Source: Verrucomicrobiaceae bacterium (GTDB lineage Bacteria; Verrucomicrobiota; Verrucomicrobiia; Verrucomicrobiales; Verrucomicrobiaceae). From it: 37,877 nucleotides of DNA. The notes beneath the pieces are model-generated. The model was not told where the DNA came from and made no database searches. It was given only the letters and a program-made list of their open reading frames with translations. Of the stretch, positions 10,716-37,765 are shown piece after piece; position 1 is the stretch's first letter, and the number at the start of each line of letters is the position of its first letter. The stretch spans positions 1-37,877 of the forward strand of contig JARXAL010000046.1 of the NCBI GenBank assembly GCA_029865835.1, written 5' to 3'. The translations under genes were made by a program, and so were the position numbers.

Positions 10716-11625
10716 CGAAAGCGGCGTCCATTTCCTGGGCGACGCCTTTGAGATAATCGAAGTCTCCGCCTGCTACTTCAGCAGCGAGCCAGCCGTGGAA
10801 GTTGATCTCGTGGAGGGCTTTGCGCACGTCCGCATAGTCGATATCGCCCTGGCCGATGGGTGTGAATTTTCCCTCAGCCCGCGAGAATCCTTTGACATCC
10901 AACTTGATCACTCGCTTGCCGAGTTGCCGGATCCAATCACCCATGCTGCCGTATTTCCAGTGATTGCCGATATCAAATTGCATGCCGACCCAGGGCGAGT
11001 TGAAGGCATCGACGTATTGAACAAATTTGGCTGCAGTTTGATCCGAGCCGCCGTCGTGGTCATAGCAAAACTGGTTCCAGACGTTTTCTATCACGATCGA
11101 AACGCCGAGTTCAGCGGCTAGAGGGACTGCTTTGGAAATGTTTTCAACGGACCGAGCCCAGATTTCGGTTTCCGGACCGTCTTCACCTTTACCGGCAACA
11201 AGCAAAACCGTGTGACCTCCAACAGCGTGGGTATCACGGATCGCTTGCTTGAGGTCTTCAAGTGCCTGGGCCCGGGTGGCATCATCAGCACTTGTGTGAC
11301 GAATCTTCCAGTGGCTGGCGCAGACCGTTCCGTCGACTGGCAAACCGCTGTCTGCGATGGCCTGACGAACTTCAGCGACGTCGTAGCCCGGGGCTTGCAG
11401 TTCGACGCCCATGAAGCCAGCTTCTTTGGCGGCGCGAAACTTGGCGGTGAGACCGCCATCGACTTTGATCATTCCGATTTTGAGCGTTTTATAGAGCCGC
11501 CCCGCCAATGCGTTGGGGATTTTGGGGTTCGCGAACGCCGCGTTCTGACGGCTTAAAAGGCTTCCGGCAAGGGCTGCGCTGCTCCACTGAAAAAAACGGC
11601 GGCGATTGAAGGCGAAATCTGACAT
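10708..11625 (-). CDS. Tat-exported sugar phosphate isomerase/epimerase-like TIM-barrel protein
   Basis: This 305-residue protein has a Tat signal (NRRRFFQWSS, residues 7-16, then a hydrophobic stretch to about 32). The rest fits the xylose isomerase-like/AP endonuclease 2 TIM barrel. Likely metal-ligand strands are IVIENVWNQ, VGMQFDIGN, VIKLDVKG and AAEVAGGDF, which carry the Glu/Asp ligands of the family. Related enzymes isomerise or epimerise keto- and aldo-sugars. Exported versions such as this are common in Verrucomicrobiota and Planctomycetota, but their substrates are mostly unknown. It begins 12 bp after the EF-hand gene at 11638-12390, so the two probably share a transcript. ATG at 11623-11625 lacks a ribosome binding site. 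Confidence 0.85.
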   Translation of the reverse strand: MSDFAFNRRRFFQWSSAALAGSLLSRQNAAFANPKIPNALAGRLYKTLKIGMIKVDGGLTAKFRAAKEAGFMGVELQAPGYDVAEVRQAIADSGLPVDGTVCASHWKIRHTSADDATRAQALEDLKQAIRDTHAVGGHTVLLVAGKGEDGPETEIWARSVENISKAVPLAAELGVSIVIENVWNQFCYDHDGGSDQTAAKFVQYVDAFNSPWVGMQFDIGNHWKYGSMGDWIRQLGKRVIKLDVKGFSRAEGKFTPIGQGDIDYADVRKALHEINFHGWLAAEVAGGDFDYLKGVAQEMDAAFGL

Positions 11626-28458: not shown

Positions 28459-28924
28459 TCGTGAGCGGGAATAGAACAAACGGCTGTTCCGTAGGTTATC
28501 TAGCGTGGGTTGAAATGGCAGGTTCGATGGGTATCACCTGATTCTTCATCGGTGCGATGACCCTTCATCGGCACACGGGTTTTGAAGAGCGCTAGCGCCC
28601 ATAGACAAGACTGGCAGATTCTTTTCCCAATCCTGCCGCACAAAACGATTTCGTTGCCCGTTTGCAAATGGTGGCAATACGCCGACGCCGACTCTGCGAT
28701 AGGGACCGTGACCATCGCTAAAAGCGACTCGTGGGGTGAGGCGAGTTTCGTGGCACCAGACGAGTCGGGGAAGCAGGGCTTGTAGGCTACCAGCGGACCA
28801 TTTGTCACATCCAATGAGTCTGCCATCGCATTTTCAGCGCCGATGCGCGGCAATCGATGGAACTACAGCAAAAAGGCGAAGATATTCCGGCAAAGTCAGC
28901 CACTTGGTGGAGCATCATTGTTGA
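28459..28924. promoter_or_regulatory. 466-bp divergent control region between MoxR operon and ECF sigma operon
   Basis: I find no convincing gene in this gap; its small open frames look random. It holds a perfect palindrome GCGCTAGCGC (28589-28598), whose core matches the one at 8472-8479. It also holds two direct copies of TTCATCGG (28545-28552 and 28564-28571) 19 bp apart, about two helical turns, as expected for side-by-side binding. Promoters for both operons should lie here, but I cannot define hexamers with confidence. The length leaves room for an untranslated leader or small RNA. Confidence 0.45.
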
Positions 28925-29458
28925 ATGACGGAATTTGATCGCGAGCAGCATGACCATTTTCTCCGCCTCTTCATGGGCCTGGAGGAGTCCTTGCGTGTAT
29001 TTGTTCGGTCCTTGTTGTTCACTCATGACGAGGAGCGGGAGGTGATGCAAGAGGTGGCGGTGGTGCTCTGGCGGAAGTTTGATGCCAGTATGGACGGTGA
29101 GGCCTTTTGCCGCTGGGCTTTTGGCGTGGCACGCATGGAGGCTCTAGCGTTTCGACGAGATCGTGCACGGGATCGACACACTTTCGGCGACGAGGTCTTT
29201 GAACTGCTCTCGCAGACGGTGTTGGAGCACTCAGACTCGCTCGAGGCGGAACGCCACGCTCTTGATACCTGCCTGCAAAAACTCCCCGAAGATCAGCGGC
29301 AACTCGTGCAGACAGCGTATGCTCCCGGCGTGAAGATCGATCACCTTGCCGCACAACTGGGCCGCACCGCGATGGCTCTCTACAAAACCCTGCACCGCAT
29401 TCGCTTAACACTCATGGACTGCACACGTCGTGTGCTCGCTACCGAAGAACTGACATGA
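28925..29458 (+). CDS. ECF RNA polymerase sigma factor, Rhodopirellula/Verrucomicrobium type
   Basis: This 177-residue sigma-70 family protein has region 2 at about 20-85 (LRVFVRSLLFTHDEEREVMQEVAVVLWRKF-type sequence, then FCRWAFGVARMEALAFRRDRARD) and region 4 at about 115-165 (CLQKLPEDQRQLVQTAYAPG, DHLAAQLGRTAMALYKTLHRIR). Together these bind core polymerase and the promoter. The style matches the sigma group common in Rhodopirellula and Verrucomicrobium, which usually sits before a transmembrane regulator and exported enzymes. Here its stop overlaps the next start (ATGA at 29455-29458). It probably switches on the operon it heads, and perhaps the divergent MoxR operon too. ATG 28925 follows a TGA directly and has no Shine-Dalgarno. 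Confidence 0.92.
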   Translation: MTEFDREQHDHFLRLFMGLEESLRVFVRSLLFTHDEEREVMQEVAVVLWRKFDASMDGEAFCRWAFGVARMEALAFRRDRARDRHTFGDEVFELLSQTVLEHSDSLEAERHALDTCLQKLPEDQRQLVQTAYAPGVKIDHLAAQLGRTAMALYKTLHRIRLTLMDCTRRVLATEELT

Positions 29459-30381
29459 ACACAAAAGATCCACGCTTTGAAATCATCCGCCGGAGCCGCG
29501 ATGGAAACGCCTCATCAGAAGAACTCGCCCGACTCGAGGCCGGCCTGCGCGAAGATACTGACTTCCGCGAAGCCTATGTGCGCTACATGAATCTCGACGT
29601 GGCACTTAGCGCCGTAGCGAAAGCGGCACCACTTCCCTTGCCCACTGCGCCTCCTCAGCGGCCGCGCTGGATCACCTGGCGTCCCCTCACCGCAGCAGCT
29701 GCGGGTATTGTGTTTGGCATGCTTTGCACCTCGGTGGTGTTTGGGTTTGTGGCGCAGCGTACGGCGGTGAAGAAGATGCCGCTGAGTGTATTCGATGCCG
29801 GATTGGAAGATGCGAAGCAGATACTGAACGATGGCCTTCCGTCTCAAGAAGGGCAATGGGGCATAGATCACGCCAAGGTTGTTTCGGCAGACGGAAAAGT
29901 GACGCCTTTGACAGGACTGCACATGCTGCGCCTGGAGCCGATTCCGCGTGAGAAGCGTGTGAAAAACCATACTTCTCGTGCCTATCAGGTGCTTGACCTG
30001 CGTTCGCTTTCTGCCTCTGCCATGACGGACAATGCCGAGGCGGAAGTGTCGGCTTCGTTTTGCGCCGCGAATAGCGGCACTAGCTCGCGATACCTGATTC
30101 GTGCCATCGCCCTTGATGAAGCACCCGCAAAGGCCACGAAGAACTTTTGGTCCAAGGTGGAAAGCGATGGCGTCGTCTCCGAGTCGCAGCGTTTTGACAC
30201 CGCGCCCGGCTCTGCTGGTTGGCAAACCTTCTCGATGACCCTGCGCCTGCCACCAGGCTCAAAGACCTTGGTGCTCATTTTCGGTGCAGTCCCACCTGAG
30301 GATGGACCCCAGCCCGCCTCTGTGCATTACCTAGATGAAGTGCAGGTCTCACTGCTCTCTTCGGAAACCCCGCTTCCCTGA
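29455..30381 (+). CDS. Putative transmembrane anti-sigma factor with carbohydrate-binding-like outer domain
   Basis: The 308-residue protein has a cytoplasmic N-terminal helical part (about 1-50, RRSRDGNASSEELARLEAGL) like those that hold ECF sigma factors. A proline-rich joint and one membrane helix (about 78-100) follow. The outer domain of about 200 residues is beta-rich: SVFDAGLEDAKQILNDGLP, then QVLDLRSLSAS, WQTFSMTLRLPPGSKTLVLIFG and VHYLDEVQVSL. That pattern resembles galactose-binding/jelly-roll domains and is unlike FecR, whose domain I do not see. The 4-bp overlap with the sigma gene strongly suggests a sigma/anti-sigma pair. I infer that an extracellular sugar or polymer is sensed by the outer domain, releasing sigma. 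The name anti-sigma rests on position and topology. Confidence 0.75.
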   Translation: MNTKDPRFEIIRRSRDGNASSEELARLEAGLREDTDFREAYVRYMNLDVALSAVAKAAPLPLPTAPPQRPRWITWRPLTAAAAGIVFGMLCTSVVFGFVAQRTAVKKMPLSVFDAGLEDAKQILNDGLPSQEGQWGIDHAKVVSADGKVTPLTGLHMLRLEPIPREKRVKNHTSRAYQVLDLRSLSASAMTDNAEAEVSASFCAANSGTSSRYLIRAIALDEAPAKATKNFWSKVESDGVVSESQRFDTAPGSAGWQTFSMTLRLPPGSKTLVLIFGAVPPEDGPQPASVHYLDEVQVSLLSSETPLP

Positions 30382-30390
30382 TTCAAATCG

Positions 30391-31662
30391 ATGAACTCTA
30401 CATTCAATCGCCGCTTCTTCCTCCGCTCCACCGGCATCAGCATGGCTCTGCCATTCCTGGAGTCGCTCACAGGCCGTGTTTCTGCCAAAGCCGCTGCGGC
30501 ATCGTCACCGATGCGCATGGTCTGCATTGGCAATCTCCTCGGCTTTTATCCGCCTGCGTTCTTCCCCACAAAAGCAGGCGCGGATTACGAACTGCCGGAT
30601 TCAGTGCAGGCGCTGAAGCCGCATCAAAAAGACTTCACGCTTTATTCCGGCCTCGATCATGGAGTGAAGGGGGGTCACTTTGCCATGAGCTCCTTCCTCA
30701 GCGGCGTGCGCACTGCTGAGGCGAAAGGCATGCCGGAGGGCAATATCACGCTTGATCAACGAGCTGCCGAGACCCTGGGCGGAGCCACTCGCTTTCCCAC
30801 GCTTGCGCTGGGTTCGGAAAGCGGTATCCACGGTGGCTGTCTGATGTCTTGGACTCGCAGCGGCACTCGCGTTCCACCCATCTCCACGCCCCGTGAGTTG
30901 TTTCGGAAACTCTTCGTCTCCGATGGCGCTGCCGACATCGCCGCCTCGTTGGATCGATTGGATATGAAAGGCTCCATCCTCGACGCCGTGCAGGGCGACG
31001 CGAAGTCTCTCCAGCGTCAGCTCGTGCAGCGCGACAAAGAAAAGCTCGACGAGTATTTCACCTCGGTCCGCGATGTGGAAAAGCAGATCGAACTGCGCCG
31101 CAAGTGGGCGCATCTGCCGAAGCCGGAGGCGAAGATCGACGAGCCAAACAACAAGGATTTCGTCTCCGATCTGCCCGTGATGTATGACCTCATCGCCCTC
31201 GCTTTGCAGACGGATTCCACACGCATCGCCACGCTGGAGATCGGCGGTGATTTTGAAGCGGCAGCCTTCGGCTTGAACGGTGGCTACCACGGTCTCTCCC
31301 ATCACGGTCAGCGCGAGGACGCCATCAAAGGCCTCATCAAAATGGAGCGCTATCAGGTGGAGCAGTTCGCCAGGTTCTTGGAGAAGCTCAAGTCCATTCA
31401 AGACGGTGGCGGCACTCTGTTGGATCATTCCATGGTCCTCTTCGGCAGTGGCATGGGCAATGCGAACTCTCACCAGAACACCAACCTCCCAATCATCCTG
31501 GCTGGAGGTGGCATCAAACATGGTGAGCACAAGGCCTATCCAGCGAACGGCATGGGCAAGCAGCCTTTGTGTAATCTCTATCTGTCGATGCTGCAGCGTT
31601 TTGGTGCGGAGGTGGATGCTTTTGGAACCAGCACGGGCACGCTCCCAGGCCTATCAGCATAG
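30391..31662 (+). CDS. DUF1552 family protein, Tat-exported
   Basis: This 423-residue protein carries a Tat-type start (FNRRFFLRSTGISMALPFLESL, residues 5-26) typical of DUF1552. Family blocks follow: MRMVCIGNLLGFYPPAFFP, YSGLDHGVKGGHF, SMVLFGSGMGNANSHQNTNLPIILAGG. The fold may relate to the DUF1501/alkaline-phosphatase group, since both share the glycine-rich exported enzyme-like layout. No activity is established. DUF1552 genes are usually next to a DUF1587/DUF1592 cytochrome gene, as here. It starts 9 bp after the anti-sigma gene without a Shine-Dalgarno. Its stop codon lies inside a run of 9-bp repeats (31658-31693). Confidence 0.92.
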   Translation: MNSTFNRRFFLRSTGISMALPFLESLTGRVSAKAAAASSPMRMVCIGNLLGFYPPAFFPTKAGADYELPDSVQALKPHQKDFTLYSGLDHGVKGGHFAMSSFLSGVRTAEAKGMPEGNITLDQRAAETLGGATRFPTLALGSESGIHGGCLMSWTRSGTRVPPISTPRELFRKLFVSDGAADIAASLDRLDMKGSILDAVQGDAKSLQRQLVQRDKEKLDEYFTSVRDVEKQIELRRKWAHLPKPEAKIDEPNNKDFVSDLPVMYDLIALALQTDSTRIATLEIGGDFEAAAFGLNGGYHGLSHHGQREDAIKGLIKMERYQVEQFARFLEKLKSIQDGGGTLLDHSMVLFGSGMGNANSHQNTNLPIILAGGGIKHGEHKAYPANGMGKQPLCNLYLSMLQRFGAEVDAFGTSTGTLPGLSA

Positions 31663-31693
31663 GACCCATATGACTCATAGGACCTATTGGTCC
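31658..31693. repeat. 9-bp tandem repeat across a stop/start junction
   Basis: Four 9-bp units run in phase: CATAGGACC, CATATGACT, CATAGGACC and TATTGGTCC. The fourth is partly the inverse, so GGACC and GGTCC (31680-31693) form a hairpin. A second inverted repeat, CCTAT-CAGC-ATAGG (31650-31663), overlaps the left end. The array includes the DUF1552 stop (31660-31662) and one candidate start of the next gene (31670). It looks like a small dispersed repeat that has settled between genes. Confidence 0.6.
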
Positions 31694-31708
31694 CATTCTC
31701 TCTCCGCC

Positions 31709-34162
31709 ATGCTCCTTCGAAAAACACACAAATGGGGACAGCTGTTCTCACTTCTCCTCACTGCCCATCTTTTTGCCGGCCCTGCTGAGTTCCTCTCCAC
31801 CTACTGCAACGACTGCCACGGCTCTGAGAAACAAAAAGGTGATCGCCGTTTTGACACGCTCGCGCTGCCTGTCGCCAAGGTGGACACGCTGATCGACCTC
31901 AAAGACATCCTAGATCAAATCAACCTCGGTGAAATGCCGCCGGAGAAATCGAAGCAGCCCTCGGCCGATGAGCAAAAGGCCATCATCGAACAACTCACGC
32001 AAGCTCTCACAGCAGGCCGCGAAACGCTCGCCAGCACGGGTGGCAGCGCCGTTTTGCGTCGATTGAACCGTCACGAATACATCAACACCATCGGCGATTT
32101 GTTCTCACTGAACATGGCCGCCTTTGATCCGACCACCAAGTTCCCCCGCGATCAATCCGAAGAGCACATGGAGAACCTCGGCGATGTGCTTCAGACTTCC
32201 GGTTACTTGCTGGATCAGTATCTTGATGCCGCCGATACTGTGGTGGAAAAGGTCTTCGCTCATCAGCAGCAGCCGAAGGAGCAGGTGTGGCACTTCAAAG
32301 GAGAGTTCAAAACCAAAGCGAAGTCCGAGAAAAAGCGAAACGAATACGACAACCGTCACCTGCTCGTGATGGAGTGCATGGACTCAGACAAGCACACCGC
32401 CGGTTTCGGCTTCATCAAAGACTTCGAGGAAGGTGTGCCTGCGGACGGCTTTTATGAGATCCAGGTGCTGGTGAAGGCCATGAACCGACAGCATCCATAT
32501 GATCCTGAAATCTTCGGCACCGATATTCGCGAGCCTTTCCGATTCGGCATCGTGCCGGGCGATTCCAAACTCGGTCCCCTCGAACTTCCACATCCGCAAC
32601 AGCCGATGCTGGCTGAGCTCGCTCTGAATGACGGCGAATCCGAGTGGCGCACGATGAAGGTCTGGCTTGATGCTGGGCACACGCCCCGATTCGTCTTCCC
32701 GAATGGGCCTGAAGACATCCGCAAAACCTGGTTCAAGATTGCTGACTACCACAAGGATCTATGGCCGCAGTTCATCAGCGAGGACGACGAAGGCAAGCTC
32801 GGAATCGTTGAGGCCAAGCAGGTCACGTTGCATGTGTGCAAGTTCCCTCACATCCGCATTGATGAAGTCAAGATTCGCGGCCCGATCCATGACCAATGGC
32901 CGCCCGCGCCTCAGCAGGCTGTTTTGGGCAAACAAGGCTTCTCACCAAAAAACATGCGAGAGCTGCTCCAGACCTTTGCGGAGCGTGCTTATCGTCGTCC
33001 GGCTTCAAAAGACGAAATGGATCGTCTCATGGCCATCGCTGAAAAACGGATCAGCACGGGGCACACGCCGCTGGATGGCTTCAAAGCAGCATTGAAGGCC
33101 GCGCTTTGCTCGCCAGGCTTTGTCTACCTTTCTCAGGAGACGAAACAGGACTCCAAGAAGCTGTCTAATCAAGCGCTGGCTTCACGGCTTTCGTACTTCC
33201 TCTGGTCCACGATGCCGGATGCAGAACTGCTGAGCCAAGACCTCACGAAGCCAGACGTGCTCACCGCACAGACACGTCGCCTTCTTGACGATTCACGTTC
33301 CGATGCCTTCGTGGCAGGCTTTCTCGATAGCTGGCTGAATCTCCGTAACCTCGGTGGCATGCCGCCAGACCGGAGCGAGTTCGAGGAATACTACTCGAAG
33401 GGTTTCCAGGATGCCTTCAAGCAAGAGACTCGGATGTTCATGCGCGACCTCATGGAGCGTGATGCCAGCATCGTGAACTTCCTCGATAGCGATTACAGCT
33501 TCCTCAATCAACCGCTCGCCACACACTACGAACTCGGCGAGTTGGGCGCTCCCGCCAAAGCGCACGAGTTCCGCAAAGTCAGTTTCAAAAACAACAAACG
33601 CGGTGGCCTGCTCGGCATGGGTTCCGTGCTCACGATCACCGCCAACGGCATCGATACCTCACCCGTCACACGCGGCGTTTTCCTGCTCGAAAACATCCTC
33701 GGTACACCTCCACCACCACCGCCCGATGATGTGCCCGCCATCGATCCCGATGTACGCGGAGCCAAGTCCATGCGTGAGCTGCTCAGTAAGCATCGCGAAT
33801 CACCGAACTGCTACGGTTGCCATCAGAAGATTGATCCGCTCGGCTTCGCCTTGGAGAACTTCGACGCCATCGGCGACTGGCGTCCACGCATCGAAAAGAC
33901 CAAGATCGATTCGAGCGGCGAACTGCCCAGCGGCGAGAAGTTCGAAGACGTGGCCGGATTGAGAAAGATCCTCGTGCAACGCAAAGACCTCTTCGCCCAC
34001 ATGCTCACCGACCGCCTCCTCACCTATGCCTGCGGTCGCCGCATCGGTGCTCTCGATGAGGCCACGGTGGAGAAGATCGTCGCTGATTTGCCCATGAAAG
34101 AATACGGCCTGCGCTCGCTGATTGAAGCGGTGGTGTGCAGTGAGCCCTTTTTGACCCGCTGA
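31709..34162 (+). CDS. DUF1587/1595/1592/1588/1585 Planctomycete cytochrome protein (diheme)
   Basis: From ATG 31709 the protein has 817 residues: a signal peptide (about 1-25) and PSCyt1 with CNDCH (33-37). DUF1587 starts near 114 (VLRRLNRHEYINT). An inserted beta-rich region covers about 193-393, then DUF1595 (ERAYRRPASKDEMDRL), DUF1592 from about 485 (ALASRLSYFLWSTMPD), DUF1588 from about 630 (RGGLLGMGSVL) with a second heme motif CYGCH (701-705), and DUF1585 at the end. It is exported, probably a c-type oxidoreductase of unknown substrate, paired with DUF1552. ATG 31670 (AGGA 5 bp before it) is an alternative start giving 830 residues but sits in the repeat array. The open frame extends further upstream inside DUF1552, which is not believable. 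Confidence 0.92.
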   Translation: MLLRKTHKWGQLFSLLLTAHLFAGPAEFLSTYCNDCHGSEKQKGDRRFDTLALPVAKVDTLIDLKDILDQINLGEMPPEKSKQPSADEQKAIIEQLTQALTAGRETLASTGGSAVLRRLNRHEYINTIGDLFSLNMAAFDPTTKFPRDQSEEHMENLGDVLQTSGYLLDQYLDAADTVVEKVFAHQQQPKEQVWHFKGEFKTKAKSEKKRNEYDNRHLLVMECMDSDKHTAGFGFIKDFEEGVPADGFYEIQVLVKAMNRQHPYDPEIFGTDIREPFRFGIVPGDSKLGPLELPHPQQPMLAELALNDGESEWRTMKVWLDAGHTPRFVFPNGPEDIRKTWFKIADYHKDLWPQFISEDDEGKLGIVEAKQVTLHVCKFPHIRIDEVKIRGPIHDQWPPAPQQAVLGKQGFSPKNMRELLQTFAERAYRRPASKDEMDRLMAIAEKRISTGHTPLDGFKAALKAALCSPGFVYLSQETKQDSKKLSNQALASRLSYFLWSTMPDAELLSQDLTKPDVLTAQTRRLLDDSRSDAFVAGFLDSWLNLRNLGGMPPDRSEFEEYYSKGFQDAFKQETRMFMRDLMERDASIVNFLDSDYSFLNQPLATHYELGELGAPAKAHEFRKVSFKNNKRGGLLGMGSVLTITANGIDTSPVTRGVFLLENILGTPPPPPPDDVPAIDPDVRGAKSMRELLSKHRESPNCYGCHQKIDPLGFALENFDAIGDWRPRIEKTKIDSSGELPSGEKFEDVAGLRKILVQRKDLFAHMLTDRLLTYACGRRIGALDEATVEKIVADLPMKEYGLRSLIEAVVCSEPFLTR

Positions 34163-34187: not shown

Positions 34188-35600
34188 ATGAAGACAGCCC
34201 GCCGCCAGATCCTCAAAGCCTTCCCACTCTTGGTTTGGCAACGTCAGCTCCTTCACGCCGCAGAATCCCAAGCTCCCTATCTCGGCCAAGGCACCATGTG
34301 TGGTGAAGTCACCCAGTCCACCGCCTACCTGCAGACGCGGCTGACGAGCGCCACGGAACTAGATGCCAACGGTGACCTTCCAGGTGCCAACGGGGTGGCT
34401 TGTTTCGAATGGAGCTCAAAGGTGGATTTCAGTGATGCTCAGCGCACGATGTTTCAGGCTGCGAGTGATGCCAGTGACTTCATTCTCCGCGCTGAACTCA
34501 CCTCTCTGAAACCGAACACGGCTTACTACTACCGCCCGGTCTTTGGCAGCTCGGAAGCAAGCGCCAAGCCAGGTCCGGAGTGTTCCTTCAAGACCTTGCC
34601 GAGTGGTGAGACCGACACGCCGGTGAAGTTCATCGTGGGCAGTTGCATGAACTACAACTAGTTCATGCTCGGCAAGAAAGGCAAGGCCAGCGGGCCGGAG
34701 ACAGCTACGTCGGAAGATAAGCGACTCGGCTTCCCCTCCTTTGAAACCATGCTGAAGCTGCGACCTGACTTCTTCATCGGCACGGGCGACATTGTCTATT
34801 ACGACCACCCGCTTCGTGTGGCCAAGACGGTGCCACAACTGCGCAAGTGCTGGCATGAGCAGTTTCGCTTTCCGCGCATGATTGAATTCTTCCGTCACGT
34901 GCCGACTTATTGGTCAAAGGACGATCACGATTTTCGATACAACGAAGGCGACAACACCAGCAGCGAGCTGCCTTTGCCAAAGACCGGCATCGATATGTTC
35001 CGCGAGCAGTTGCCTGTGCCAAGCCCCAGCTACCGAACCCATCGCGTCGGCAAGAACCTGCAAATTTGGCTCACCGAAGGCCGTGACTATCGCTCGCCTA
35101 ATGAAATGGCTGATGGCCCGGGAAAATCACTCTGGGGCACCAAGCAGCGTGAATGGCTCAAAGCCACACTCAAGGCCAGCGATGCGAAATGGAAGATCAT
35201 CATCTCGCCCACGCCCATGGTCGGCCCCGACGACAAAAAGAAGATCGATAACCACGCCGACATCAGCGGCTTCCGACATGAAGCCGATGCCTTCTTTGCC
35301 TGGCTGCAGGAAAACAAGATCGATAACCTCAAGCTCATCTGCGGTGACCGTCATTGGCAGTATCACAGCATCCATCCATCGGGCATCGAGGAGTTTGCCT
35401 GCGGTGCGTTGAACGATGAAAACTCTCGGATGGGCGTCGCTCCGGGTGACAAGAAGGGCTCTGATCCACAGGCGCTGATTAAGCAGGAATACACCTCGCC
35501 CACACCCAATGGCGGCTTCTTGCAAATCACCGCCGGAGATGAACTCGTCCTCGAGCACCTCGACTCGCGAGGAAAGCAACTGCATCGCGTGATTAGATAG
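34188..35600 (+). pseudogene. PhoD-like metallophosphatase interrupted by an in-frame TAG
   Basis: Two same-frame pieces, 34188-34661 (157 codons) and 34665-35600 (311 residues), are separated only by TAG at 34659-34661 and one TTC codon. Read through, they make one 470-residue exported PhoD-like enzyme. It has a Tat-like start (TARRQILKAF), an N-terminal Fn3-like PhoD domain with KPNTAYYYRPV, then VGSC just before the TAG. After the TAG come GTGDIVYYD, SKDDHDF and CGDRHW. The normal residue at the TAG is probably Tyr (NYN-Y-FM), one base change away. The break separates the iron-binding Cys motif (153) from all other ligand motifs, so two pieces alone should be inactive. Sequencing error, recent nonsense mutation or read-through are all possible. 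All other codons look intact. Confidence 0.75.
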
Positions 35601-35640: not shown

Positions 35641-36354
35641 ATGAAAAGCCTCGTCTTAGTACTCACACTCGCCGTCCTGCCATCGGCTTATGCCGAGAAG
35701 CTCATATTTGAAGACAAGTTTGACCGCAACGAGTCGCAGGAAACTACGGAGGAAATCGGCCATGACTGGTCCACGAACAGCAAGACCCGCGCAAGTGGCC
35801 ACAAGCAGGTGGACCTGAAGGACGGGGCCATGCACATTGCGATGCATGCCGACGCGGATCATGCGGTGGGCGTCGGACACGATGCCGAGTTTCGCGATGG
35901 CACGGTCGAGATGCGATTCATGCTGGAGGATGCGCAGGATGTCCTCGGCGTTGATATAGCGGACCCTCAGTGCAAAGAAGTTCACTCAGGCCACCTGTTC
36001 AAAATTGATGTCGGCACCAAACAAGTGGTCGTAGACGATAAGAAGACGGGCGTCATGAACTTGAAGTTTTATGAGGCGCGGAAAGCAAAAACACTGACAC
36101 CTGAGCAGTTGGCGTTCATTGCGGCGCAAAAGAAGACATTCCCCGGCACCTTGGAGACGGGTAAATGGCATAGACTGCTGATCAAGATCGCTGGCGACAC
36201 CGTCAGCGTGTCCATCGATGGAAGCCCCGTGGCATCGGTCACCTCCGAAGGCGTTGCACATCCAACCAAGCGGCTGATTCGCCTCTCAGTGGGCCGACAG
36301 GCATGGGTGGATGATGTGAAGGTCTTTGCTTCAACGACAGCGAATGGGAACTAA
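35641..36354 (+). CDS. Exported lectin-like (DUF1080/concanavalin-type) protein
   Basis: This 237-residue protein has a clear signal peptide (residues 1-18, ending AYA). The rest is beta-rich: LIFEDKFDRNES, WSTNSKTRASGHKQVDLKDGAMHIAMH, FRDGTVEMRFMLED, GKWHRLLIKIAGDTVSVSIDG, RQAWVDDVKVFAS. These steps (FxDxFdR, KDGAL, WHxxxIxxxGdxxxxxxDG) fit a concanavalin A-like fold of the DUF1080/3-keto-disaccharide hydrolase type, but short and without a confident catalytic site. It may bind or cut a sugar polymer. Such proteins are common next to sulfatases and PSD genes. It lies 40 bp after the interrupted phosphatase and 7 bp before the sulfatase. Confidence 0.75.
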   Translation: MKSLVLVLTLAVLPSAYAEKLIFEDKFDRNESQETTEEIGHDWSTNSKTRASGHKQVDLKDGAMHIAMHADADHAVGVGHDAEFRDGTVEMRFMLEDAQDVLGVDIADPQCKEVHSGHLFKIDVGTKQVVVDDKKTGVMNLKFYEARKAKTLTPEQLAFIAAQKKTFPGTLETGKWHRLLIKIAGDTVSVSIDGSPVASVTSEGVAHPTKRLIRLSVGRQAWVDDVKVFASTTANGN

Positions 36355-36361
36355 ACCAACC

Positions 36362-37765
36362 ATGAAAATCCTCTTTTTACTCCTCGCCGGTCTACTGCTC
36401 GCTCCGCTGGCCTTGCTGCACGCTGCTGGCAAACCCAACATCATCTTCATTCTGGCCGATGATGCGGGCATTGGGGACTTCTCGGCATACGGCTGCAAGT
36501 ATGGCACTACGCCGAACATTGACCGCCTCGCCAGCGAGGGCATGAAGTTCACCCGAGCCTACAGCGGCAGCGCGGTGTGTGCGCCTTCGCGTTGCGTGCT
36601 GATGACTGGTCAGCACACGGGGCACGCGTTGCGCCGCGCCAATCAGAGCAAAATCGGCCTGCTTTCCCTTCCACCCGATCAAATGACGGTGGCGCGTTTG
36701 CTGCACGAAGCCGGTTACGCCACGGGTGGCTTCGGCAAATGGGGACTGGGCAATCCAGGCTCGACCGGGGTGGCCGAGAAGCAGGGCTTTGATGTGTTCT
36801 TCGGCTACTACGACCAGAAACACGCGCACGACTACTACACCGACCATCTGGTTCGAAACAGTGCCGATGTGCTTTACCAATTATCCGGCAAGGAAACGTG
36901 GGAAGACTATTCTCACACCCGCATCGCCAATGAGACGCTGAAGTTCATCGAGCAAAACAAGGACCGCCCCTTCTTTTGTTATGCCGCATGGACCCCACCA
37001 CACGGCGATTTCGTCATCCCAGAGAACCCAGTCTTTGGTGAGAAACAATGGCCGGAGGACATCAGGAACTACGCCGCGATGGTCGCTCTCGTTGACCGGG
37101 ATGTCGGTCGCGTGTTGCAGAAACTAAAAGATCTCGGCATTGATGACAAGACGCTGGTGATCTTCAGTTCCGACAACGGTGCCAACCCTGAGTTCATTGA
37201 GCCGCTCGGCAGCACCGGAGGCCTGCGCGGCTACAAGCGGCTGCTTTACGAAGGCGGCATGCGCACGCCATTCATCGCACGCTGGCCGGGCAACATTCAG
37301 CCCGGCACGACCAGCGACGCACTCACCTCGTTCATGGATTTTTTACCGACAGCAGCAGACCTCTGCGGAGTTCCCGCGCCGAAGGGCATCGATGGTCACT
37401 CCATCGCGCCGGCCTTGCTCGGGAAAGGTCAGCAAGAGCCGCGTGAATCGCTCTATTTTGAAATCTATGAGCCCTTCTTCCAGCAGGCCGTGCGCATGGG
37501 CGATTGGAAAGGCTACCGGCTCGGCACCAAAGCCCCGCTCGAACTCTACGACCTTAAAGCCGACCCTGCCGAAGCAGAAAACATCGCCGCTGCTCACCCG
37601 GACATTGTTCAAAAGATCGAAGCCATCATGACCGCCGAGCATACGCCCTCTCCCCATTACGATGCGCCTGAGCAAGGCAGCGCGGGCGGACCCAAAGCGA
37701 AGAAGAAAGCATCACTCCCCGAGCTGCTGAATGAGGAAAAACCAACGCCCAACGCCAAGCACTAA
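36362..37765 (+). CDS. Exported formylglycine-dependent sulfatase
   Basis: The 467-residue protein has a signal peptide (about 1-22). It shows the sulfatase hallmarks: metal aspartates in ILADDAG (about 30-36), and CAPSR at residues 73-77, where the Cys should be converted to formylglycine, followed by MTGQHTGH. A later FSSDNGAN block (about 268-275) supplies more metal ligands. It is about the usual length for the family and ends in a lysine/proline-rich tail (KAKKKAS). It should hydrolyse sulfate esters of polysaccharides or sugars outside the cytoplasm. The formylglycine-generating enzyme must lie elsewhere. I chose ATG 36362 because it opens the signal peptide. The longer frame would begin inside the previous gene. 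It heads toward another exported gene at 37775. Confidence 0.95.
   Translation: MKILFLLLAGLLLAPLALLHAAGKPNIIFILADDAGIGDFSAYGCKYGTTPNIDRLASEGMKFTRAYSGSAVCAPSRCVLMTGQHTGHALRRANQSKIGLLSLPPDQMTVARLLHEAGYATGGFGKWGLGNPGSTGVAEKQGFDVFFGYYDQKHAHDYYTDHLVRNSADVLYQLSGKETWEDYSHTRIANETLKFIEQNKDRPFFCYAAWTPPHGDFVIPENPVFGEKQWPEDIRNYAAMVALVDRDVGRVLQKLKDLGIDDKTLVIFSSDNGANPEFIEPLGSTGGLRGYKRLLYEGGMRTPFIARWPGNIQPGTTSDALTSFMDFLPTAADLCGVPAPKGIDGHSIAPALLGKGQQEPRESLYFEIYEPFFQQAVRMGDWKGYRLGTKAPLELYDLKADPAEAENIAAAHPDIVQKIEAIMTAEHTPSPHYDAPEQGSAGGPKAKKKASLPELLNEEKPTPNAKH

Follow-up and report, generated by a model that had tools for sequence, protein, structure and literature searches.

Independent exchange of sigma and ectodomain modules in a verrucomicrobial family of ECF sigma/anti-sigma gene pairs

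Comparison of related loci across Verrucomicrobiota shows that a family of ECF sigma factors and their one-helix anti-sigma factors is built from two modules, which are inherited and exchanged independently of each other. The first module, about 0.95 kb in length, comprises the promoter, the sigma gene, and the part of the anti-sigma gene that encodes its cytoplasmic domain. The second comprises the jelly-roll ectodomain of the anti-sigma factor and the operon downstream. The family was traced from a 37,877-nucleotide stretch of a Verrucomicrobiaceae genome, referred to below as the window. Both the module exchange and a conserved transmembrane-coding tract at the join go beyond the original prediction made for this DNA, which had described the gene pair, its outer domain, and its operon.

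The gene pair and its relatives

The sigma gene (28925-29458, + strand) encodes a 177-aa protein that matches the NCBIfam profile Sig-70_gvs1 (TIGR02989) over residues 11-166 with a score of 152.2 bits, above the cut-off of 124.55. It overlaps the gene for the 308-aa anti-sigma factor (29455-30381, + strand) by 4 bp, an ATGA at 29455-29458. The anti-sigma protein contains a single hydrophobic segment at residues 77-103 (Kyte-Doolittle maximum 2.14), preceded by a cytoplasmic N-terminal domain (residues 1-66; 29455-29652, + strand) that presumably binds the sigma factor and for which AlphaFold predicts three helices, at residues 6-15, 21-33, and 35-57. Profile searches of Pfam and NCBIfam match the protein to no family, FecR included, and place it in no named anti-sigma domain family. 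It nevertheless displays the features of a one-helix, class I-like anti-sigma factor, with a small helical cytoplasmic domain that co-evolves with the sigma factor and one transmembrane helix. The sigma/anti-sigma pair, with its 4-bp overlap and single helix, is thus as originally described, and so is an outer domain unlike FecR, PF04773 being absent from the window protein. The genome to which the window belongs (G000; 4 Mb, 86% complete) holds 24 Sig-70_gvs1 matches, eight of them above the curated cut-off.

Five full-length paralogues of the anti-sigma factor are encoded in the same genome, each adjoining a sigma gene and each without FecR. At one of these (C26), genes for sigma, anti-sigma, DUF1552, a DUF1592-type protein, and sulfatases follow in the same order as in the window. 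Other anti-sigma factors match the first 90 residues only, and some of them carry FecR (C237, for example), which points to the N-terminal ~90 residues as a common, presumably sigma-binding unit with different outer parts set on top. The N-terminal domain is also homologous to the N-terminus of FecR-type anti-sigma factors from these genomes.

This homology to the FecR-type proteins of the same genomes is what might be expected of ordinary FecI/FecR-type surface signalling, in which the signal would come from a TonB-dependent transporter encoded elsewhere, and locus L168 unites FecR and the family's jelly roll in a single protein. We nonetheless regard that explanation as highly improbable: FecR is missing from the window protein and from all five paralogues, and the genome yields only two hits to the TonB plug domain, of which one exceeds the family cut-off and neither is located on the contig of a paralogue. 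The absence of a TonB transporter from the window had already been noted in the original prediction; no linked TonB-dependent transporter is encoded there, elsewhere on this contig, or on the contigs of the paralogues. An ordinary FecR system was rejected on these two grounds, the lack of a FecR domain and of a linked TonB receptor. Across the family, PF04773 is absent from the 43 members scanned, and the FecR matches of the genome sit in other proteins.

Unusual architectures occur at two loci. The anti-sigma-like protein of L168 (4687-6063, minus strand) combines a FecR-like region, read by eye, with the jelly-roll ectodomain, a possible intermediate architecture, and L167 encodes a 2500-residue protein with the jelly roll among other domains.

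Independent exchange of two modules

The family set was drawn from Verrucomicrobiota and consisted of 45 related loci, 43 further ones, and 20 later additions, which gave 83 + 15 members after removal of duplicates. The 45 initial loci were picked via helix peptides; because such seeding could bias the results, members picked otherwise were added and a synonymous-site test, which is blind to the helix-peptide bias, was used. A sigma gene lies directly upstream in all members with enough upstream sequence (83 + 15), and the ATGA overlap is kept in 86 of 98. With the five paralogues, this puts the gene pair well beyond what chance would produce. Among pairs of members within one genome, 1 of 72 has sigma factors at least 70% identical.

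Sequence identities of the sigma factor and the N-terminal domain vary together (rank correlations of 0.76 and 0.61 for the first and the larger set, respectively; partial rank correlation 0.59), as against partial correlations of -0.04 and 0.02 in the two sets between the N-terminal domain and the ectodomain. The partial correlation with sigma, together with the homology to FecR-type proteins described above, lends weight to the earlier proposal that the N-terminal part pairs with sigma. Tree comparisons follow the same division. Each half rejects the tree of the other, by 7374 log units for the combined sigma and N-terminal domain data on the ectodomain tree and by 6761 the other way round, whereas sigma data favor their own tree over that of the N-terminal domain by only 307.

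Individual loci display the exchange directly. L086 and L092 have sigma factors 97% and N-terminal domains 90% identical, with ectodomains only 36% identical; L092 and C194 share 96% identity in the ectodomain, compared with 47% in sigma and 31% in the N-terminal domain. L092 therefore belongs to both discordance classes, and unequal rates alone cannot explain the discordance. At the DNA level, L086 and L092 are 91% identical from -666 to +351 relative to the anti-sigma start, with no identity further downstream, and module 1 is likewise shared and module 2 different in L083/C194, L101/L111, and L104/L106. The converse arrangement, in which sigma modules differ, is seen in L092/C194 (93.5% identity from +210 over 3.2 kb) and L106/L111 (97% over 3.9 kb of module 2). 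The window itself has module 2 in common with L083, L084, L085, and L177 and differs from them in module 1. Overall, the DNA of the sigma module spans about -580/-670 to +290/+350 relative to the anti-sigma start; that of the ectodomain module begins at about +200/+235 and continues through kilobases of cargo.

Classification under one set of thresholds yields 35 sigma-N types and 31 ectodomain types in 53 combinations, with nine types on each side having more than one partner; the result stands at other thresholds, and cycles in the graph of combinations vanish at strict ones. The ectodomain and cargo of the window (type e1) occur behind at least five sigma types: s2 in the window, s3 in L083 (and, by identity, L177), s5 in L085, s6 in L086, and s14 in L084.

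The clear chimeras all come from metagenome-assembled genomes, and no clear-cut swap is found in the complete single-contig genomes of L157 and L163, though both carry the family. Several contigs, moreover, stop within these genes. Such a provenance is compatible with assembly artefacts, in which short-read assemblers would have joined paralogues at the conserved tract, yet we give this explanation almost no credence. Particular combinations of types turn up again and again in independent assemblies that have diverged by several percent: s6/e0 in L087, L092, and L097; s5/e0 in L088, L091, and C26; s3/e0 in L090, L093, and C194; and s2/e1 in the window, L079-L082, and L099. In addition, exact matches within a genome do not exceed 30 nt in the genomes checked. 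Misassembly is unlikely on both counts, and we retain genuine module exchange as the explanation of the chimeras. A shufflon with silent cassettes was also considered and rejected, there being no array of free ectodomain cassettes among the matches listed; many partial ectodomain matches in that list lie at contig starts.

At the left end of module 1 is a putative autoregulated ECF promoter, CGGCAA-N15-GGAGCATC (28888-28916, + strand). Its -35-like element CGGCAA (28888-28893, + strand) is followed by the 15-nt spacer and a -10-like GGAGCATC (28909-28916, + strand), which is separated from the sigma ATG by 8 nt. The motif is kept among members with s2-type sigma factors, the DNA further upstream being divergent, and many sigma types have in common a -35-like TTTTCGGCAA with a -10-like element that differs by sigma type. 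When up to one mismatch is allowed, the motif has six further matches in the window's genome, all of them within genes, so that the sigma factor probably serves mainly its own operon; a regulon beyond that operon was discounted because all six are intragenic. The close spacing between the -10-like element and the start (28909-28927 in the window) recurs in other sigma types, making near-leaderless transcripts likely.

An interspersed repeat of ~80 bp is present upstream of several sigma modules of different types (L095 at about 1040-1150, L086, L092, L094, L101, L106, L121, L150, and G000:C157). It has 13 matches in genome G028 and two in that of the window, and no significant match in Rfam, the best lying far below its gathering score. 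The repeat is a possible upstream crossover site and remains a lead in that respect; it was not adopted as one, being found elsewhere too and missing at some loci.

The join and the transmembrane-coding tract

The junction between the modules falls at a 78-bp tract (29665-29742, + strand; codons 71-96) that encodes RWxxWRPLTAAAAGIVFGMxCTSVVF and spans most of the transmembrane helix. Across 1045 pairs whose flanks both fall below 45% identity, identity at fourfold sites of the tract is 0.57; the expected value is 0.33, and the flanks, which are saturated, reach 0.35 and 0.36. In a second sample the tract has 0.51, vs 0.35 and 0.33 in its flanks. This synonymous excess runs from codon 71 to codon 96, identity being at background level at codons 69-70 and 97, and where the helix protein has diverged the excess is absent (0.34, first set) or weak (0.39, second sample). 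These comparisons show codons 71-96 to be conserved beyond the requirement of the protein.

A change-point fit was made to discordant pairs, which are not independent of one another and whose counts are not counts of events. For 119 of 124 pairs, and for all 38 of a later sample, it locates the break within codons 62-110. Most breaks map to codons 70-75 if the ectodomain is shared and to codons 97-103 if sigma is shared, at the two limits of the conserved transmembrane stretch. Since conservation of the helix extends to every pair, the fit sets breaks at its edges and cannot count crossovers inside it. The sole locus that shows an internal crossover is L134, in which codons 84-93 (30 nt) are identical to L143 of the same genome and codon 94 onward matches another lineage. 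Exact matches within the tract have a median length of 17 nt and a maximum of 50. Runs this short lie close to or under the length that homologous recombination usually needs to be efficient.

From these patterns we infer that homologous recombination in the tract is the means by which modules are swapped. We lean slightly toward the further view that the tract is a DNA junction kept by repeated exchange, giving access to a shared pool of modules and allowing sigma-operon connections to be rewired by crossovers in one helix. The modules could instead be exchanged while the tract is held by a different constraint, a signal at the mRNA or DNA level within the coding sequence, with breaks merely appearing there. 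Estimation of the change-points at the edges of a tract conserved across all pairs would be compatible with such a constraint, as would the shortness of the exact runs. Several observations make it unlikely, however. Predicted RNA structure is no better than in shuffled controls (z 0.34 to 1.06), the tract is confined to this gene family in the 54 genomes, little or no synonymous excess is left where the helix protein has diverged, and the L134 junction lies within the tract. Two specific candidates were rejected along the way: a conserved RNA structure, since folding z-scores are above zero in three members, and a dispersed recombination site, since the tract was found in no other gene of those genomes.

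Ectodomain, cargo, and the proposed switch

The AlphaFold model of the anti-sigma factor, built with 43 sequences, shows the three N-terminal helices, then a helix region of poor model quality and, at residues 105-303, an all-beta part that forms the periplasmic or extracellular ectodomain (29767-30363, + strand). The pLDDT is 75 overall and mostly 80-92 in the beta part. Foldseek comparison of the ectodomain with the PDB retrieves the Fbs1 sugar-recognition domain, CBM16, CBM22, CBM61, and porphyran- and alginate-binding modules (E about 1e-5 to 1e-6, prob 1.00, target-normalised TM-score about 0.60-0.71), so that the galactose-binding or jelly-roll outer domain of the original prediction takes the form of a CBM16/22-type jelly roll. 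With rmsd values of about 4-7 A in superpositions on CBM-type folds, the likeness is at the superfamily level. By sequence, no Pfam CBM family matches the window protein or the members scanned, and the best PDB match, CBM22 4xun, is not significant (E 0.24). Residues E118, W135, D138, G154, W256, and D294 are invariant.

The genes downstream all run in the same direction as the sigma/anti-sigma pair. They encode a DUF1552 (HXXSHH) protein (30391-31662, + strand; PF07586, E 2e-83); a planctomycete cytochrome c with Pfam domains DUF1587/1595/1592/1588/1585, whose ORF is listed as 31280-34162 (+ strand) and whose domains begin near 31784, the true start probably lying after 31662; a PhoD-like phosphatase with Pfam PhoD_N and PhoD domains (34188-35600, + strand); a concanavalin-like (LamG) or 3-keto-disaccharide hydrolase-like protein, with Pfam matches below curated cut-offs (35641-36354, + strand); and a sulfatase (36326-37765, + strand; PF00884, E 3e-59). 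The Pfam assignments agree with the sulfatase, DUF1592, and lectin-like genes first described for this operon and add DUF1552. The PhoD-like gene is split into two ORFs in one frame (34188-34661 and 34665-35600) by an in-frame TAG at 34659-34661; in L079, L081, and L082 it is an unbroken ORF of 471 aa. Elsewhere in the family, the first downstream genes encode PSCyt/PSD cytochromes, DUF1552, DUF4838, sulfatases, GDSL lipases, and others.

Downstream homology is kept in 63 of 76 pairs that share an ectodomain vs 1 of 18 that share a sigma factor, which supports coupling of ectodomain and cargo as a unit that moves as one. The L099 locus (10930-11121) has a window-type pair behind which the DUF1552 and DUF1592 genes are absent and only the C-terminal 64 residues of PhoD persist, as if the cargo had been deleted.

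The modelled fold suggests an extracellular ligand, probably a glycan, which might, as first proposed, be the polymer broken down by the cargo enzymes. Contacts between proteins are another known role of jelly rolls. Moreover, the cargo travels with the ectodomain and consists mostly of DUF1552/DUF1592 cytochromes of unknown function, not of classical glycoside hydrolases. These features would suit a sensor of envelope state or of a partner protein, perhaps a product of the cargo, bound directly or as negative feedback. We hold this alternative to be possible but on balance doubt it, the top fold matches being mainly glycan-binding domains (CBM16, CBM22, CBM61, and Fbs1) and glycan-related genes, sulfatases among them, recurring as cargo.

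With a glycan as the presumed ligand, the loci probably function as self-driven sigma/anti-sigma switches for their own operons, the two modules being swapped in the helix tract and sigma being freed by ligand-triggered cleavage. The sigma module would carry its own inhibitor domain and promoter, and the ectodomain module the genes under its control. Because each module would be self-sufficient, a crossover in the helix would yield a working switch in which an unchanged sensor and its genes answer to another sigma factor. Binding of the extracellular, probably glycan, ligand to the ectodomain would lead to cleavage of the anti-sigma factor, with the last cut made within the membrane by a site-2 protease, and the freed sigma factor would transcribe its own operon. 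A site-2 protease is encoded in the genome. In E. coli, RseP cleaves FecR (PMC8144685), and in Clostridium thermocellum, RsgI is cut by RseP and XAA motifs in its helix are ClpXP tags (PMC12203970). In the window family, a conserved AAAA where the helix begins resembles these motifs and may be analogous to them.

The clostridial SigI/RsgI system is the closest known analogue (PMC12203970, PMC6056542). It too has an alternative sigma factor in an operon with a one-helix anti-sigma factor, outer sensor domains of various kinds, CBMs among them, autoregulation, multiple paralogues within a genome, and a small-residue motif in the helix. It differs in its SigI sigma family, its dedicated autocleaving periplasmic domain, and its Gram-positive host; NCBIfam and Pfam hits include no RsgI domain, and the window sigma factor is Sig-70_gvs1 rather than SigI. 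Sensor diversity on anti-sigma factors is thus already known from RsgI, and shuffling, recombination, or swapping is not mentioned in the SigI/RsgI account of PMC6056542. With FecI/FecR the window pair shares an ECF sigma factor, a one-helix anti-sigma factor, and, via the FecR-type members in the same genomes, a homologous small cytoplasmic domain; it differs in having a jelly roll instead of FecR (L168 has both domains) and no linked TonB transporter. In ECF/class I anti-sigma pairs and in SigV/RsiV, the sigma factor and anti-sigma domain co-evolve, and RsiV binds its ligand, lysozyme, directly (PMC7406223, PMC4183432). The window family departs from these in that exchange of its outer part is uncoupled from the sigma-binding part. 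Exchange of variable modules across a conserved junction is familiar from type I restriction HsdS and Rhs polymorphic toxins. Here, by contrast, the exchanged units are two halves of a transcription switch, one holding input and cargo and the other sigma and promoter. Searches of open-access literature found no description of exchange between sigma and sensor/cargo modules at a conserved helix tract.

ECF sigma and anti-sigma factors are usually seen as co-evolving pairs, whereas in this family only the small cytoplasmic part co-evolves with sigma; the sensor outside and the genes under its control switch partners, and the point of joining maps to a helix. This ties the enigmatic DUF1552/DUF1592 cytochrome operons to a dedicated sensor, and assignment of its ligand is helped because one sensor/cargo module can be tracked across several sigma factors. 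The family also offers a natural set of functional joins for sensor building and a testable route to many non-cross-reacting sigma factors per genome. If the tract is indeed a junction kept by exchange, these bacteria would repeatedly reconnect their glycan-response operons to different sigma factors.
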